IMG/VR virus record: IMGVR_UViG_3300036790_000230
Location: 1 to 37,260 of that record
Length of the DNA stretch: 37,260 nt
Origin: a virus
Strand: one strand, 5' to 3'
Under the pieces are notes generated by a model. The model was not told where the DNA came from, searched no databases, and saw only the letters and a list, made by a program, of their open reading frames with translations. Shown in pieces: positions 10,892 to 22,829 of the stretch. The translations under genes were made by a program, and so were the position numbers. Position 1 is the stretch's first letter, and each line of letters starts with the position of its first letter.

Positions 10892-11271
10892 CCGCGACAT
10901 CGGCCGACCTGGGACGGCTGGGCGGATTCATGGCCCGCATCCAGGTGATCGTGGTCAGCACCCTGGTCTTCGCGGTGCTGACCGTCATCGGCGCCGTCGT
11001 CCAGCGGGCCGGCGATAACGCGGCGCTGCGGGCGAGCCTCGCGGATCTCCACGGGCAGATCGAGAGCCTCGCGGCGCAGAACGAGCGCCTCCGTGGCGAG
11101 AACGACGCCAGATGGCGCGAGAACGTGAAGTCGAAGACCGACCGCTACGACATCCACGACACACTGAAGCGGCTCGACGAGCGGTCGGATTACCTCGACC
11201 AGACGGTGAGGGGGCTCATCAAGGCCGAGCGCGAACGCCAGCAGCGGCGGAAGGCGGAGGCCGGGAAATGA
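10888..11271 (+). CDS. Membrane-anchored coiled-coil protein, spanin-like
   Basis: A 127-residue protein from the ATG at 10888 overlapping the previous stop. One N-terminal membrane helix (IQVIVVSTLVFAVLTVIGAV) is followed by a long charged coiled coil (ASLADLHGQIESLAAQNERL and on to KAERERQQRRKAEAGK). This is the layout of inner-membrane spanins (Rz type) and of some phage anti-lysis proteins. The next gene starts with a signal-like segment but is not a clear Rz1. Confidence 0.65.
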   Translation: MTATSADLGRLGGFMARIQVIVVSTLVFAVLTVIGAVVQRAGDNAALRASLADLHGQIESLAAQNERLRGENDARWRENVKSKTDRYDIHDTLKRLDERSDYLDQTVRGLIKAERERQQRRKAEAGK

Positions 11272-11615
11272 CCCTGATCCTCGCACTCGCCCTGCTGGCC
11301 CAGCCCGGCGACATCGCCGCCCTGGGCGCCCCACGCTGGGCCGACCGCGAGGCGGCCGAGAAGCGGCTGGATGCCGGCCCGATCGAGGCGGCACTGCCGG
11401 GACTGCACTCGCGCGACCCGGAGATCCGCCGCCGTGCGCTGCGGTCCATCCGTCGCAAGTCGCCGTGCATCTCGTGCGACGGCAGCGGGGTGCATGCCCA
11501 TTGGGTGCAGCCGTTCCCGTCCATGAAGGGATTTTACGTCGGCGAGCTCTGCGCGACGTGCGGCGGCTGGGGTTCGAAGTGGCTCCAGAGGCGGATGGCC
11601 AAGGGGAAGGCATGA
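11268..11615 (+). CDS. HEAT-like plus CxxCxGxG zinc protein
   Basis: A 115-residue protein from the ATG at 11268, overlapping the previous stop. A short hydrophobic N-terminus (MTLILALALLAQPGDIAAL) may be a signal peptide. Residues 22-62 (LGAPRWADREAAEKRL, DPEIRRRALRSI) match the short HEAT-like module very common in planctomycete proteins. Then CISCDGSGVHAHW and CATCGGWGSKW form a DnaJ-type zinc knuckle pair. The combination suggests recruitment of host-type domains. Function unknown. Confidence 0.65.
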   Translation: MTLILALALLAQPGDIAALGAPRWADREAAEKRLDAGPIEAALPGLHSRDPEIRRRALRSIRRKSPCISCDGSGVHAHWVQPFPSMKGFYVGELCATCGGWGSKWLQRRMAKGKA

Positions 11616-11821
11616 TCTCCGATCGCAGCAAGCTGGTGGGCCGCTTCAACATGATCGACAACCCCATGCCCAGCGACAGGGGGCCCGACGGCAGGCTGCT
11701 GATCGCGGCCGGGGTGATCCTGATCGTGCTCACGGTCGGCACGCTGTTCGCCTGCCTGTGGTCGATCCAGGGATTCGAGGCGCCGATCAGCCAGGCCAAT
11801 GTGAACAGGACGACGAAGTGA
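11612..11821 (+). CDS. Small single-pass membrane protein
   Basis: A 69-residue protein in a coupled chain (ATGA at 11612). It has a polar N-terminus, one membrane helix (LLIAAGVILIVLTVGTLFAC) and a short polar C-terminus. No family recognised. Together with the previous genes it forms a run of four to five small membrane proteins, which suits a lysis or membrane-modifying module. Confidence 0.65.
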   Translation: MISDRSKLVGRFNMIDNPMPSDRGPDGRLLIAAGVILIVLTVGTLFACLWSIQGFEAPISQANVNRTTK

Positions 11822-12003
11822 GCGAGGTCGAGGATTGGCTTGATAGTCCGGAGGGGAGAGTTGTCACCATCCGGATTTTGGAGGATCTAGGGCGCAGGAA
11901 GCTGCATAGGCTCCGAGAAGTCGCGGGAGCAACAGTCACCGTTGCGGAGTTCTGGTGGCTGCTACCTGCGCTGTTGGTCGATGGATTCTTGGAGGCGAAG
12001 TGA
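11818..12003 (+). CDS. Small hypothetical protein
   Basis: A 61-residue protein from GTG at 11818 overlapping the previous stop (GTGA). It has an acidic N-terminal half and a C-terminal hydrophobic, Trp-rich stretch (AEFWWLLPALLVDGFLEAK) that could be a membrane-associated helix. Third-position GC is somewhat lower than in its neighbours. Unknown function. Confidence 0.6.
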   Translation: MSEVEDWLDSPEGRVVTIRILEDLGRRKLHRLREVAGATVTVAEFWWLLPALLVDGFLEAK

Positions 12004-15070: not shown

Positions 15071-16624
15071 TTGCCCGGCCTCCTCGACCGCGCCCGGATG
15101 TCGGTGGCCCGGATGATCGCACCGCGCCCGCGCAAGTCCGATCAGCAGAGGCCGCCCGGCCAGTTCAACCTCGGGACGTCCAATTGGTGGGGGGGCCCGG
15201 TCTATGTCGACGGGTTCGAGTCTCGCCGGGCGCCGACCCCGTACCAGCTCGTCGAGCGGTACAAGACGTTGGTCTTCGCGATGGCGGGCCGGAACCGGGA
15301 TGCCGTGAGCCGGCTGCCGATTCGGCTGTATGTGGACGGTTCGCGGGCGCAGGGCGGAAGGCCGCGGAGTGCCTGTGACCCCATCCGGGTGGGCCGCTCG
15401 GCCGCGGAGCGGTTCGTGCGGAACGGCATGGTCAGCGGGGCGGCGGTCGACCGGGTCTACGAGGTGCGCAACCACAAGATGCTCGACGTGCTCGACCGGC
15501 CCGACCCGGATGGCATCTTCGACCGCAAGGCGCTGATCGGCTTCCTGACGCTCTCCATGGACATCCTGGGCTCCGCCTACCTCGTGCCGGACGGAAACGG
15601 CTGGGATCGCGCGACGGGTGCCAGGGGGACGAATGCCCCCGAATGCCTGTGGGTGCTGTACTCGCAGTATGTCTACGGCCTCCCGCGGCCGTCGGACCCG
15701 CGGGTCGAATACTGGCAGTACTTCGCCGAGCGTATCCCGTTCGCCTCCGCCATCTGGTTCCGGCAGTCGGTCAGCCTGCGCCAGCCCTATGCCAGCGGCT
15801 ACAGCCCCGCCTATGCGGGTGACATGTACCAGGACCAGGAGCAGCGGATGGTCGCCATCGCCGATCAGTTGCTCGGCATGGGCCCGCGCCCGAATGTGGT
15901 GGTGAGCTCCAAGGACCCGATGATGCCGATGGGCGTCGACGCCAAGGAGCGGCTCAGGGCCGACCTCAACCGCAAGCAGGCCGGCCCGAACGCGGGCGGG
16001 GCGCTGGTGACCGACGGTTCGATCGAGGTCACGCCGATCAATCAGCCGCCCGCCGACTCGAGCTGGAAGGACCTCTCCGAGTACGACCGCAACTGCCTGG
16101 CATCGATCTTCGGCCAGCCGCCCACGTTCTACACGACCGACACGAACCTGGCGAACCTTCAGGCCGCCGACGAGCAGCATGCCCGGTTCGGGGTCGAGCC
16201 GCGGGGCTGGGCCATCGCCGGCAAGCTGACCCGGTTCGTGCAGGAGTTCGACCCCAGGCTATTCTTCGCCTTCGACGACGCCATTCAGGAAGATTCGGAG
16301 TCGAAGGAGAAGGTGATCTCGATGCGTCTGGCATCGGGCCGGACCGTGATCAATCAGGAGAACGAGGAAGATCGGTGGCCGCCGGTCAAGTGGGGTGACG
16401 AGCCGTGGTTGCCCTCGACCCTGAAGCAGCCGTCGATGATGCAGGCTGAGCACGAACAGGGGCTCGCGACGGCCAAGGCCGGCATCGAGCAGGGGCAGGC
16501 GAAGGCCGAGAACGAATCCAAGCTGACCAAGTTCCAGACGACCGAGACGGACACGGAAGAGCGGGCGCTGGTCGAGCGGGCGCGGTGGCTGATCGGTGAG
16601 ATCGAGGGGAGGAGGGCGGGATGA
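15071..16624 (+). CDS. Phage portal protein
   Basis: A 517-residue HK97-family portal, the dodecameric ring at the capsid vertex through which DNA passes. The N-terminal region (YQLVERYKTLVFAMAGRNRD) and the core (SMDILGSAYLVPDGNGW, GYSPAYAGDM, TPINQPPADSSWKDLSEYDR, IASIFGQPPTFY-like at LASIFGQPPTFYTTDTNLAN) follow the family order. A charged Glu/Lys-rich tail ends the protein. Start is TTG at 15071, just after the previous stop; an ATG exists at 15107. It overlaps the following gene at 16621. Confidence 0.92.
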   Translation: MPGLLDRARMSVARMIAPRPRKSDQQRPPGQFNLGTSNWWGGPVYVDGFESRRAPTPYQLVERYKTLVFAMAGRNRDAVSRLPIRLYVDGSRAQGGRPRSACDPIRVGRSAAERFVRNGMVSGAAVDRVYEVRNHKMLDVLDRPDPDGIFDRKALIGFLTLSMDILGSAYLVPDGNGWDRATGARGTNAPECLWVLYSQYVYGLPRPSDPRVEYWQYFAERIPFASAIWFRQSVSLRQPYASGYSPAYAGDMYQDQEQRMVAIADQLLGMGPRPNVVVSSKDPMMPMGVDAKERLRADLNRKQAGPNAGGALVTDGSIEVTPINQPPADSSWKDLSEYDRNCLASIFGQPPTFYTTDTNLANLQAADEQHARFGVEPRGWAIAGKLTRFVQEFDPRLFFAFDDAIQEDSESKEKVISMRLASGRTVINQENEEDRWPPVKWGDEPWLPSTLKQPSMMQAEHEQGLATAKAGIEQGQAKAENESKLTKFQTTETDTEERALVERARWLIGEIEGRRAG

Positions 16625-16809
16625 CCTACAGCGAACGAAAGAAGCTTGCTGACGCGGCGGTGGCATGGCTTGATGCCCTGCGCCGTCGGGGCAGCGACGT
16701 CCCCGACAGCCCGGTCAATCTCATGGGCGCATTGGATGCTCTCGGTGCACTCAGGCAGCCGGATTGGAACAAGATCGGTTGTCATTACGAGTACAAGGAT
16801 CAAGCTTGA
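16621..16809 (+). CDS. Small hypothetical protein after portal
   Basis: A 62-residue protein from ATG at 16621 (ATGA overlap with the portal). It is helical (KKLADAAVAWLDALRRRGSD) with a polar C-terminus (WNKIGCHYEYKDQA). Not recognised. Its stop overlaps a TTG start at 16806 that opens a long stop-free frame. Confidence 0.65.
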   Translation: MTYSERKKLADAAVAWLDALRRRGSDVPDSPVNLMGALDALGALRQPDWNKIGCHYEYKDQA

Positions 16810-18800
16810 GCCGCATCGCCGCCCTGCGATCGACCGTCGCCGAGCTGGAGCGGAAGTATCGCGCGCTGGGAGGGGATGATGGAATTCGTGGAACTGACGC
16901 CGGAGCAGGCTGCTGCGATCGATCGGGCGAAGCGGGAAATGTTCTGGAACGACCTGGATGCGGCCATGAAATACTGGGGCGGACCGGCGGCGGCAACCCC
17001 AACCACGACGACGACGGCAAGTTCGCCGCTTCCCCCGGCGGCGCAGGACACGGCAAGCACTGGGCCCGGCGGCAGCGGCGCAAGAAGCGGCTCAGGCGGA
17101 AGCTGCGCGAGCTGAAGGTGCAGCACAAGGCCGAGCGTCAGGGCCTGGCGCAGCGGCAGCGGGATCGGCATTGGAAGCATCGGGAGCGGTTCGACCGCAA
17201 GCGGGCGTCGCTCGACAAGCACCAGGCCCACGACCTCAAGCGGATGGACGCCGAGCACGCGCGCGAGATCCACGGGATGGAGCGGCGACGCGATCGCGAG
17301 CGGGTGCAGGAGTCGCGGCAGAAGGCGGGCGGCAAGGTCAACGACGAGCAGATCGCGAAGTGGGAGGCCGACCACGCCCGGGATGTCGAGTCGACGAAGG
17401 AGAGCAACGTCAAGATCCGCAAGGACCTGCAGGATACCCACGATTTCGATCGTGCCATCCTCCGGGACGAGCGGAAGGCGTGGGCCGATGATATCAAGGC
17501 CGAGCACGCGCGGCAGCGCAAGGGCCTGCTGAGGCGACATCGGGGCGAGCGGGATGAGGCGATCGAGGAGCACGGGTTCAGGCGACGGGAGGAGAGCAAT
17601 GGCAGATCGGCTCTATCGCGGGGGGGAGATGGATATCTACATCCCGGAGTCATGGCTGGCGGACGGGACATTGGAGGAAGTGGGCCGGGCCGCGGAACAG
17701 ATCCTCTCGAGCGGGACGACCTATCGCCAGCAGAGCGAAGCGATGAAGGAGCTTATGGGTCCGAAGACGGCGTTGGACGGATATATCACAGTGGTGTCGA
17801 AGCCGAAGGAGTAGCCGATGGACTGGACAGCTTTCACCGCGGGTATCTTGATCGGCGCGAACCTCGCGTGGGCCGCGGCGCTGCTGTGGCGGGCCCCCCG
17901 CGCATCGGCAAAGGCCGGACCCACAAGGCCTCCAACGCTGAGGCCATCCTCAAGCACTGCCTGCGAAGGCTCGGGCTGTCGGCATCGTATCGACACGATG
18001 AACTGACGGGCGAGCAGGCCATCGATCTCCTCGACGCCGTGCGGGACTATTCGCGGGCCTGGCTGCGACACGAGTGCGAGGCGCTGATCCGCCATTACGG
18101 GAGGGTGATCGATGATCAAGCTATCGCAGCAGCAGGCGAGGGCATTCGAACAGGCGATGCAGGAACGATTCATGGGGGGCAGTGCGGCATCGGTGGAGAT
18201 CATGACGGAAGAGGAATGGGCGGCGAGGTGCGCACTCTCTCTTCCGCCATGCGACACCATGTCGGCTACTTCTTCGACCGCGCCCGCAGCTTCATCCGAG
18301 AGTCCATCCTCGCCGGCGCCATGGCCCTCAGCGGACCCGAGGGCCTGACCCCCGATGACCTCGTCGAGGCGGATCGCCAGCATGCGGTGCAGGTCGCGTA
18401 CCTGGACCAGTTCCACCGCGATGTCGAGGTGCGCGGGCCGGCCGAGCTGTCGGAGCCGGGCCTCATGCCGCCGCCTGCCGACGCGATGACGGCACCCGAG
18501 ATGGCGGCGCGGGCCGAGATGTACGGCAGCGCGACGTGGGGCGCGGCCCATGAGATCAATCGCAGGGGGGTGATCCGGGACGGGAAGGCCGTGCGGGAGC
18601 GGCGGTTCCACTGGCGCGAGGTCGATCACCCCTGCGGGACATGTGCGGCCGAGAGCGGCAAGGGGTGGGTGCCGGTCGGCACGCTGCTGAAGATCGGCGA
18701 CTCGGAGTGCCTGGGCATCGGCTGCGACTGCTACTTCGTCTACAAAATGCCCGATGGGACGAATTTCATCACCCGGCGAGGATGGAGGAGGGCGGCGTGA
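16806..18800 (+). CDS. Minor head (MuF-like) composite frame
   Basis: One frame stays open for 664 codons from TTG 16806 to 18800. Coding quality (high GC at third positions) is in this frame only in parts: 16806-16875; about 16985-17595, with NPNHDDDGKFAASPGG then a long Arg/Lys/Glu coiled coil; about 17890-18111; and 18228-18800. The last part resembles minor capsid proteins, with HPCGTCAAESGKGWVPVGTL and CLGIGCDCYFVY cysteine pairs. Between these parts the neighbouring +1 frame carries separate small genes. It may be one protein, several (GTG starts at 17886 and 18228), or frameshift fusions. The head role is fairly sure; the gene structure is not. Confidence 0.5.
   Translation: MSRIAALRSTVAELERKYRALGGDDGIRGTDAGAGCCDRSGEAGNVLERPGCGHEILGRTGGGNPNHDDDGKFAASPGGAGHGKHWARRQRRKKRLRRKLRELKVQHKAERQGLAQRQRDRHWKHRERFDRKRASLDKHQAHDLKRMDAEHAREIHGMERRRDRERVQESRQKAGGKVNDEQIAKWEADHARDVESTKESNVKIRKDLQDTHDFDRAILRDERKAWADDIKAEHARQRKGLLRRHRGERDEAIEEHGFRRREESNGRSALSRGGDGYLHPGVMAGGRDIGGSGPGRGTDPLERDDLSPAERSDEGAYGSEDGVGRIYHSGVEAEGVADGLDSFHRGYLDRREPRVGRGAAVAGPPRIGKGRTHKASNAEAILKHCLRRLGLSASYRHDELTGEQAIDLLDAVRDYSRAWLRHECEALIRHYGRVIDDQAIAAAGEGIRTGDAGTIHGGQCGIGGDHDGRGMGGEVRTLSSAMRHHVGYFFDRARSFIRESILAGAMALSGPEGLTPDDLVEADRQHAVQVAYLDQFHRDVEVRGPAELSEPGLMPPPADAMTAPEMAARAEMYGSATWGAAHEINRRGVIRDGKAVRERRFHWREVDHPCGTCAAESGKGWVPVGTLLKIGDSECLGIGCDCYFVYKMPDGTNFITRRGWRRAA
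16876..17115 (+). CDS. Small gene, likely fuses into coiled-coil frame
   Basis: Starts ATGATG at 16876 right after GGGAGGGG, a strong ribosome site. The first 36 residues (MMEFVELTPEQAAAIDRAKR, then MFWNDLDAAMKYWGG) look genuine and have high third-position GC. After about 16985 this frame becomes PT-rich and poor, while the frame one base back becomes clearly coding (NPNHDDDGKF). A -1 shift here would give a natural minor-head protein. As written it is a 79-residue protein. Confidence 0.5.
   Translation: MMEFVELTPEQAAAIDRAKREMFWNDLDAAMKYWGGPAAATPTTTTTASSPLPPAAQDTASTGPGGSGARSGSGGSCAS
17599..17814 (+). CDS. Small hypothetical protein in head module
   Basis: A 71-residue protein (MADRLYRGGEMDIYIPESWL...) with GGAGGAG five bases before ATG 17599. 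Third positions are strongly G/C. A beta-hairpin start and helical end (EEVGRAAEQILSSG) are visible, with no known family. It is nested in the long composite frame, which in this stretch has poor coding quality. It ends in TAG, 3 bp before the next start. Confidence 0.65.
   Translation: MADRLYRGGEMDIYIPESWLADGTLEEVGRAAEQILSSGTTYRQQSEAMKELMGPKTALDGYITVVSKPKE
17818..18006 (+). CDS. Membrane-helix N-terminus, frame changes at C-run
   Basis: Starts at ATG 17818 behind AAGGAG. Residues 1-26 (MDWTAFTAGILIGANLAWAA...) form one membrane helix and are good coding sequence. At a run of six Cs (17894-17899) the coding signal moves to the -1 frame (RIGKGRTHKASNAEAILKHC). The remaining 36 codons of this frame are low quality. 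The true product is either a 62-residue protein or a fusion into the composite frame. Confidence 0.5.
   Translation: MDWTAFTAGILIGANLAWAAALLWRAPRASAKAGPTRPPTLRPSSSTACEGSGCRHRIDTMN
18112..18348 (+). CDS. Small gene before minor capsid segment
   Basis: ATG 18112 follows GGGAGGG by six bases. The first 40 residues (MIKLSQQQARAFEQAMQERF, EIMTEEEWAAR) are good coding sequence; after 18228 the frame becomes Ser/Pro-rich while the -1 frame takes over as the minor capsid segment. It is either a 78-residue protein overlapping its neighbour by about 120 bp or the start of a frameshift product. Confidence 0.5.
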   Translation: MIKLSQQQARAFEQAMQERFMGGSAASVEIMTEEEWAARCALSLPPCDTMSATSSTAPAASSESPSSPAPWPSADPRA

Positions 18801-19402
18801 GTTATGATTCCCGTCCTGATACCTATGCGCACATCCAGATGGTCCAGGGTCTCCTTGGCCGCGTGATCCGGCTGCTGACGAGGCGATCCGAGGCCCACGA
18901 CCGATCGAAGCTCGTCAGTCCCGAGGTTGAGGCGTTCGACGAGTTCACGGGCAGGCTCCGCGGCCTGACGTACGGCTCCGACGAGTACCGGGCGTGCCTC
19001 GCCGCGATGAAGCCGGCGCTCGACCACCACTACTCGCAGAACAGCCATCACCCCGAGCACTACCGTTGGCGATGCGGCGTCTGCGACCGTCGATGCCGCG
19101 ACGCGGAATGGGAAGTTGCCCCGCAAGGTCCGAACGACTCAGGCTTACGGTACTGCCCGGATTGTTGCCGCCACGGGATGATCTACGAGGCGTGGCTCAA
19201 GGCCGAGACGGACAAGGGCCTTCGCGGGATGACGCTCCTGGACCTGGTCGAGATGCTCTGCGACTGGAAGGCCGCGACGATGCGTCATGCCGATGGCGAC
19301 ATCCGGCGGTCGATCGAGATCAATCAGGGTCGATTCGGCTATTCGGATGAACTGATGCAAGTATTCCTCAATACGCTCGATGAGATCCAGGACGACGAAT
19401 GA
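18797..19402 (+). CDS. DUF5662-like protein with zinc cysteines
   Basis: A 201-residue protein from GTG at 18797 (GTGA overlap). HDRSKLVSPEVEAFDEFTGR and LDHHYSQNSHHPEHY match the DUF5662 pattern (HD..K..., N.HH.EY), thought to be an HD-like metal-binding fold. A cysteine-rich insert (CGVCDRRC and YCPDCCRHG) probably binds zinc. The C-terminal helices (TLLDLVEMLCDWKAATMRH) finish the domain. Enzyme activity unknown; such genes occur scattered in phage genomes and also as stand-alone accessory genes. Confidence 0.75.
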   Translation: MSYDSRPDTYAHIQMVQGLLGRVIRLLTRRSEAHDRSKLVSPEVEAFDEFTGRLRGLTYGSDEYRACLAAMKPALDHHYSQNSHHPEHYRWRCGVCDRRCRDAEWEVAPQGPNDSGLRYCPDCCRHGMIYEAWLKAETDKGLRGMTLLDLVEMLCDWKAATMRHADGDIRRSIEINQGRFGYSDELMQVFLNTLDEIQDDE

Positions 19403-21121: not shown

Positions 21122-21140
21122 CCGAAGCACGTTTCGTTTG

Positions 21141-22829
21141 ATGTGCACGATGATGACCGACCAGACGCAAGCCCCGGAGTGTCCTTCGAGGCCACAGGGG
21201 ATGCTGCGCCGGAGGTTCGGCACTTCGATGACTGCCACGCTGGCACTCATTGGGGTGATCACAGTGGAAACCGCGTTCATCGAGTTCACCACCAAGGTGG
21301 GCTCGTGGGAAGCCGGCGCGATCGAGACCATGCCGCGAGCCGTCGCGGATGGCTACGTCGCCGCCGGGCAGGCAAAACCGAGCGACCAGACCGCACACCT
21401 GCGGGCGTCGCTCCAGGCGGACCAGACCCGCCAGATCGCCGGGCTCGAGGAGCGGCTCCTGAAGGCGCTCAAGCCCGAGACATCGGGCAACGTCGAGCGG
21501 GGCCGGCTCAAGCCCCCCGGCGCCGGCGGGGCCGAGATCGAGCGGATCGAGAACGGCGATCGGCTCGATCCGGCCAAGCTCAAGAAGGAGGAGCGCTGGT
21601 ATCACGCCGGCCAGATGGTCCGGGCTGTGCTCTGCGCCCAGGCCACCGACACGCCGCCGGAGGACAGGGATTGGGGCCGCAGCCTGCTCCACAACCTCTA
21701 CTGCCAGAAGAAGAGGGTGGAGTACAAGGTCAACGAGGGCGACGGCGACAGGGATATCGCCCGCTACAGCGACAATGTGGGCGTCACCCGGACCGGCACC
21801 GACTCGGTATCGGGCGGCACGACCTATGGCTTCCTGGTCAGGCCCGAGTGGTCCGACTCCCTCTTCCGGATTCCGATCGAGGAGTCCGTGATCGAGCCCT
21901 ATGCCTTCGATGTCCCGGTCGGGCAGGCGCTCGAATTCAATATGCCCGCGCTCGACCAGTACACCACCCCGACGGCGGGCCAGTCCGCGGCCTATGCGGG
22001 CTTCCAGCTCTCCAGAAAGGGCGAGATCACCGCGCGGTCGCCGTCGGACGGCAAGGTCAACGAGATCAATTACAAGATCACCGACCTGACCGCCTATACG
22101 ACGTATTCCAGGGACCTGGACGCGGACGCCTTCATCCGGATCGGCTCGCTGATCCAGCAGGTGCTGGGGCAGGCGTTCCAGTGGAAGAAGGATTATGAGT
22201 TCATGCAGGGCAACGGCGTCGGGATGCCGCTCGGCATCCTGAACGGGGGCGCCCTCGCCGCCAACCTGCAGGCCTCGATCCTCAACGTGGATCGGTTCGC
22301 CGCGAACACGATCACGTATGAGGACACCGTCAACATGATGCAGCAGATCCACCCCGCCTACTGGAAGGAGATGTACTGGATCACCAACTCGGCGCAGACG
22401 CTGTCCCAGCTCGTCTCGATCAAGGATGACGCGGGCAACCGGGTCTTCCTGCCGAACTCGCTGGTCGGCCAGTGGATGACGCCAGCCCTGATGGGCGAGG
22501 GGAAGCCCTACAACAACCTCACCTACCAGGCGCAGGGCATGATGCAGGGCAAGCCCGTCCTGTTCTCGGAGAAGCTGCCGCAGCTCGGGAGCACGGGCGA
22601 CCTGATCCTGACCAACCCGCGATATGCCTACGGGGTGGCGACCCGGGCCGGCGTGGAGATGGCGATGTCCGAGCACTTCCTCTTCAGCACGGACCAGATC
22701 GCCATGCGGTGGAAGCTGCGCAACGACGCCAAGCCGCTGCTGCGCGGGCCCTACATCCAGTCGGATGGCGGCAAGACCTCCGGCAATTCCAAGACGTCCT
22801 GGTGCTCGGTCCTGGCGGCCCATACCTGA
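21141..22829 (+). CDS. HK97-fold major capsid protein
   Basis: A capsid protein of about 560 residues. The C-terminal 380 residues have the HK97 order (IEESVIEPYAFDVPVGQALE, ITDLTAYTTYSRDLDADAFI, MQGNGVGMPLGILNG, and the P-domain region to LVGQWMTPALMGEGKPYNNL). The N-terminal 150 residues are charged and helical, like the scaffold delta-domain removed by the protease. Starts at 21141, 21228 and GTG 21264 are all possible; from 21264 (METAFIEFTTKVGS) the sequence looks native. None has an ideal ribosome site. The next gene follows after GGAAGGAGGAG. Confidence 0.93.
   Translation: MCTMMTDQTQAPECPSRPQGMLRRRFGTSMTATLALIGVITVETAFIEFTTKVGSWEAGAIETMPRAVADGYVAAGQAKPSDQTAHLRASLQADQTRQIAGLEERLLKALKPETSGNVERGRLKPPGAGGAEIERIENGDRLDPAKLKKEERWYHAGQMVRAVLCAQATDTPPEDRDWGRSLLHNLYCQKKRVEYKVNEGDGDRDIARYSDNVGVTRTGTDSVSGGTTYGFLVRPEWSDSLFRIPIEESVIEPYAFDVPVGQALEFNMPALDQYTTPTAGQSAAYAGFQLSRKGEITARSPSDGKVNEINYKITDLTAYTTYSRDLDADAFIRIGSLIQQVLGQAFQWKKDYEFMQGNGVGMPLGILNGGALAANLQASILNVDRFAANTITYEDTVNMMQQIHPAYWKEMYWITNSAQTLSQLVSIKDDAGNRVFLPNSLVGQWMTPALMGEGKPYNNLTYQAQGMMQGKPVLFSEKLPQLGSTGDLILTNPRYAYGVATRAGVEMAMSEHFLFSTDQIAMRWKLRNDAKPLLRGPYIQSDGGKTSGNSKTSWCSVLAAHT

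Follow-up and report, generated by a model that had tools for sequence, protein, structure and literature searches.

Small +1-frame genes are probably nested in the linkers of a single phage minor-head gene

We know of no nested open reading frames (ORFs) in the MuF-like minor capsid family. In phage lambda, Rz1 is a small gene that has its own start and occupies the +1 frame of the larger Rz (PMC6139136). Most known nested genes use the +1 frame, and overlapping proteins tend towards disorder, which has been proposed to relieve constraint (PMC8227390). Here we analyzed an IMG/VR virus record of 37,260 bases and 66.8% GC over its full length, hereafter called the window. In its minor-head gene, four ORFs, designated A1, B, C1 and D1, lie in the +1 frame on the same strand, all wholly inside positions 16806 to 18800.

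The parent gene encodes a 664-residue minor-head (MuF-like) protein in frame 0 of the plus strand (16806 to 18800). It is placed between the genes for the portal (15071 to 16624) and the major capsid protein (21138 to 22829), as are those of MuF-like minor capsid proteins. Frame 0 is free of stops from 16674 up to a TGA at 18800, and the likely start is a TTG at 16806, which overlaps the TGA that ends a small gene just before it and has an AAGGA ribosome site upstream. That small gene (16621 to 16809) sits between the portal and minor-head genes and is missing from the related contig L067, whose parent gene begins at the stop of the portal gene. The gene next after the parent (18797 to 19402) matched DUF5662 with an E value of 4.6e-31.

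The parent protein is laid out as a GNPNHD tag, a coiled-coil and a minor-capsid-like domain. Its N-terminal helix (SRIAALRSTVAELERKYRALGG, 16806 to 16875) is 68% identical to that of L067, in which the tag comes directly after the helix. In the window the tag, GGGNPNHDDDGKF, is at 16986 to 17024, and its residues G, N, H, G and F are invariant in all seven parents aligned. The charged coiled-coil region that follows (17025 to 17598) has predicted long helices and same-frame identities of 50% to L049 and 35% to L067. The first part of the capsid-like domain, C0 (17901 to 18107, running from GRTHKASNAEAIL to RHYGRV), shares 57%, 52% and 49% identity with L049, L067 and L046, respectively, and the second part, D0 (18228 to 18797), which carries a CxxC...CxC motif, shares 57% with L067, 52% with L049 and 43% with L046. 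A related tag, GNPYHDxEGHFT, is repeated in successive proteins of another contig (L011, 13117 to 21557; L046). By Pfam, these tagged proteins have portal plus ADP-ribosyltransferase, topoisomerase I, a second ADP-ribosyltransferase and GNAT domains, and a HEFGH metallopeptidase-like motif was seen by eye; they are possibly tagged virion cargo.

Searches of Pfam with the parent returned no family above the cut-off, and no described MuF or head-morphogenesis sequence family was matched. In PHROGs, phrog_24776, of unknown function, was matched at 1.7e-12 at best, and by D0 at E = 0.0011. The capsid-like domain modelled alone (the L083 domain, with 15 sequences) gave a pLDDT of 86, and many matches of the predicted domain in BFVD are named minor capsid, MuF-like or head morphogenesis proteins (E of about 1e-3 to 5e-2). 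Among solved structures, no fold match was obtained at E <0.001. A literature search found no description of the minor-head gene of these phages.

Each of the four nested ORFs has an ATG and is preceded by a ribosome site, and the strong sites that an earlier note on this DNA had described ahead of its +1 segments were all located. A1 (MMEFVELTPEQAAAIDRAKREMFWNDLDAAMKYWGG..., 16876 to 17115) follows the site GGGAGGGG (16868 to 16875) and may instead start at 16879; its +1 codon signal stops at about 16985. B (17599 to 17814), with the site GGGAGGAG at 17587 to 17594, is a gene of 71 residues with its own start and stop. C1 (MDWTAFTAGILIGANLAWAAALLWRAP..., 17818 to 18006) starts 3 bases past the stop codon of B, and its ribosome site, AAGGAG (17806 to 17811), lies within the end of B, as in translational coupling. 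The +1 codon signal of C1 fades at about 17893, and inspection of its sequence suggested a probable transmembrane segment. D1 (MIKLSQQQARAFEQAMQERFMGGSAASVEIMTEEEWAAR..., 18112 to 18348) is preceded by GGGAGGG (18099 to 18105), and its signal reaches approximately 18228. The +1 stretches fall in three in-frame additions or linkers, namely, A1 (16876 to 16985), B plus C1 (17599 to 17893) and D1 (18112 to 18228). A1, C1 and D1 are still open at the point where the parent domain resumes, and their putative products would end in a low-complexity tail of 35 to 45 residues. No homologues of any of the four were found in the fetched loci, nor of B in the phage collection; in Pfam no family scored above the cut-off, and PHROGs gave weak matches only (best, 0.01). 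Direct and inverted repeats were found, but they gave no sign of target-site duplications at the inserts, and Rfam searches found no element.

The alternation of coding frame reported in the earlier note was reproduced. Third-position GC and a codon-likelihood model returned the same +1 stretches as the earlier reader's, and an HMM placed them at 16867 to 16972, 17603 to 17884 and 18110 to 18213. We tested the +1 excess against 1000 synonymous recodings of the 664-residue parent protein. The observed log-likelihood (LL) excess was reached by none of the recodings for A1 (39.3), B (71.1) and D1 (31.5) and by 7 of the 1000 for C1 (15.4). No comparable +1 excess was found in the terminase, portal and capsid genes.

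The openness of the long frame carries less weight. Over 2312 codons of genes in this genome, the -1 frame contains 24 stops, compared with 72 for the +1 frame, and a 351-residue ORF lies in the -1 frame of the capsid gene. The probability that the parent frame would be open by chance through all four window stretches was about 0.16 to 0.22, which is unremarkable for the window alone because the -1 frame of real genes here seldom has stops. A calculation that took the nested peptides and the codon usage of each contig as given put this probability at about 0.22 for the four window stretches; for 12 tested segments of the window and relatives, it put the chance of the parent being open through all at 5.7e-6 (as a product), a value that is indicative only because the segments were hand-picked, mostly from phages with a fused parent. 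The earlier argument that so regular a pattern speaks against chance is thus borne out by codon usage and by the relatives but not by the stop-free long frame by itself.

Related contigs came from a terminase search and from profile searches based on the portal or on the capsid-like domain. Looking for homologues directly, with the parent or portal against viral_contigs and with the parent against the phage collection, yielded nothing usable. The closest relative found was L067/L083, with a capsid identity of 72%. In L067, the pre-tag segment, tag, coil, C0 and D0 are all in frame 2, without A1 and D1, and relative to L067/L083 the window has net additions of about 33 codons (A1) and about 36 codons (D1). 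The 3' end of the minor-head gene of L067 is overlapped by a GIY-YIG endonuclease gene that runs in the opposite direction (11062 to 11856, minus strand). The homologous protein of L049/L084 is a single uninterrupted frame, and the parent homologue is likewise continuous in L067/L083, L087, L089, L093 and L094. The tag, or a diverged form of it, is in one frame with the capsid-like domain in all of these and in L100 and L102; in L100 it is fused to the domain, and the linker has no nested ORF. C0 and D0 adjoin in L046/L085, L051/L093 and L006/L099, and D1 is missing from L067, L049, L046 and L051. Since the tag and the capsid-like domain share a frame in relatives, the long frame is a single gene, and its internal borders do not mark gene ends. 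The comparison of gene borders in related phages, which the earlier note had proposed as a check, thus gave a parent in one frame, with no separate genes or stops at the borders.

ORFs in the +1 frame recur at two sites among these phages. Just upstream of C0 they were found in ten phages (the window, L083, L084, L086, L087, L089, L093, L094, L101 and L102), and between C0 and D0 in the window, L086, L087, L089 and L101, with weaker cases in L088 and L100. They start with an ATG and have a ribosome site ahead in most cases. An unsupervised scan with a 1% threshold and no prior placement detected the upstream site in the window, L083, L084, L086 and L094 and the site between C0 and D0 in the window, L086, L087 and L088; L089 and L093 were borderline. 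The +1 signal was weak or borderline in the lower-GC relatives L087 (at the upstream site), L089 and L093. As the codon model transferred to lower-GC relatives proved unreliable for L051, locus-trained models were used. The nested peptides are mostly unrelated from phage to phage, and their conservation at the protein level is accordingly thin. The clearest similar pair among the many compared was that of L089 and L101 at the site between C0 and D0, where the +1-frame score of 41 was reached in 0 of 400 shuffles and the parent frame gave a p value of 0.075.

The C-terminal linker of the portal also contains, in the +1 frame, short transmembrane-like ORFs with their own stop (L091, 1986 to 2084; L092, 5829 to 5927; L096, 2324 to 2431; L097, 5829 to 5918; L090, 3802 to 3879). 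The capsid-like domain comes directly after the portal in L091 (2095 to 2164), L096 (2445 to 2520), L097 (5932 to 6010) and L062 (9506 to 9580). In L062, no in-frame ATG, GTG or TTG was seen before this domain, and a CTG overlaps the portal TGA.

AlphaFold2 modelled the 664-residue parent with pLDDT values below 50 mainly at residues 24 to 64, 267 to 375 and 433 to 477, close to the inserts, which occupy residues 24 to 60, 265 to 363 and 436 to 475. For the inserts, low values are in part to be expected, as insert residues lack aligned homologues. The model suggests that the parent-frame product of the +1 stretches is probably a disordered linker, and in the model of the capsid-like domain alone, the D1 site is in the loop joining two long helices.

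We consider it probable, at roughly 0.6, that small genes are nested in the +1 frame inside one minor-head gene, the linkers of which act as recurrent slots. The long frame would be a single minor-head gene encoding the tag, the coiled-coil and the MuF-like domain, and in its three linkers or additions the DNA would mainly code for small +1 genes (A1; B and then the coupled C1; D1). Ribosomes would start independently at the nested ATGs; those that initiate at the TTG at 16806 would continue in frame 0 through the nested stretches, and the extra parent residues would be accommodated as flexible linkers that lie between domains and in a surface loop. Stops seldom interrupt the -1 frame of GC-rich genes, so a +1 guest whose length is 3n can be carried without breaking the host gene, and the parent frame could survive in this way.

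The earlier note had offered three options, of which nested small genes within one long minor-head gene is the one with which the relatives agree. Separate genes that lost their stops through sequencing indels or assembly errors are a very improbable source of this layout. Indels typically yield frame changes within an open frame, but the relatives have one continuous frame without stops at the borders, and indels are unnecessary as an explanation because the same +1-inside-0 layout is repeated at the same sites in independent contigs. Moreover, indels do not give rise to added stretches of about 100 bases that have starts and a codon bias, and the neighbouring genes of the window are intact. 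The remaining option, serial -1 frameshifting, would make the +1 leaders the N termini of shorter products that shift into frame 0 (tag-coil, C0-D0 or D0) and thereby give alternative forms of head protein. It would explain the absent stops, since A1, C1, D1 and nearly all the nested ORFs of relatives, which also lack a stop before the next domain, are open across the junction; the +1 codon signal does not extend beyond the point at which the parent domain takes over again, and the direction of shift is always from +1 to 0. However, a canonical X_XXY_YYZ heptamer is near none of the 13 transitions, the single heptamer being 54 bases off, which concerns canonical slips. In addition, the leaders are not conserved, unlike the expected N termini of one protein, and B terminates at a stop of its own as a self-contained gene. 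Conserved parent codons fix the first +1 stop, about 103 bases into C0; this stop is present also in L085, which has no nested ORF, so that it does not discriminate between nested genes and -1 shifting. We regard frameshifting as quite unlikely.

It is also conceivable, though unlikely, that the guest DNA is unexpressed, with inserted small-gene fragments that are now mere parent-frame linker and a +1 codon signal that is a relic. The run-on ends without stops and the low conservation of the nested peptides fit this explanation. In contrast, every +1 segment of the window begins with a ribosome site and an ATG, the peptides of L089 and L101 are similar in the +1 frame, and distant phages show the recurrence, always in +1. 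These observations argue against a relic.

More tentatively, the minor-head linkers may be recurrent landing sites for small genes, with unrelated +1 guests at the same two sites, and the linker residues of the parent may be a by-product of reading guest DNA with an offset of one base, which would turn the usual course of overprinting around. The differences from known nested genes are the fixed sites, the exchangeable guests and a host frame that appears secondary in codon usage. Translation of the nested frames, if it occurs, would mean that a structural gene also serves as a cassette for exchangeable small proteins, and gene callers would miss these because only the long frame is kept. The locus would offer a natural, repeated case for testing whether overlapping genes originate by capture or by overprinting, and it suggests that in GC-rich genomes a compositionally open -1 frame lets one gene absorb another without a stop.

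Like MuF-like minor capsid proteins, the parent is encoded between portal and capsid and has cysteine pairs near its C terminus, and its predicted domain resembles BFVD models with such names at the modest E values given above; unlike them, it has no Pfam match and carries an N-terminal tag and a coiled-coil. The arrangement shares with lambda Rz/Rz1, which are embedded spanin genes, a small gene in the +1 frame of a larger one. Rz1, however, belongs to a lysis cassette, in which it is a conserved functional partner, whereas the hosts here are head-gene linkers and the guests vary between phages, most of them without their own stop before the next domain. As with gene E nested in D of PhiX174 and viral overprinting, the overlap is internal, mostly +1 and associated with disorder. 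In overprinting, however, the newer frame is usually the odd one, whereas here the nested frame has the normal codon usage of the genome and it is the host frame that looks secondary in these stretches.
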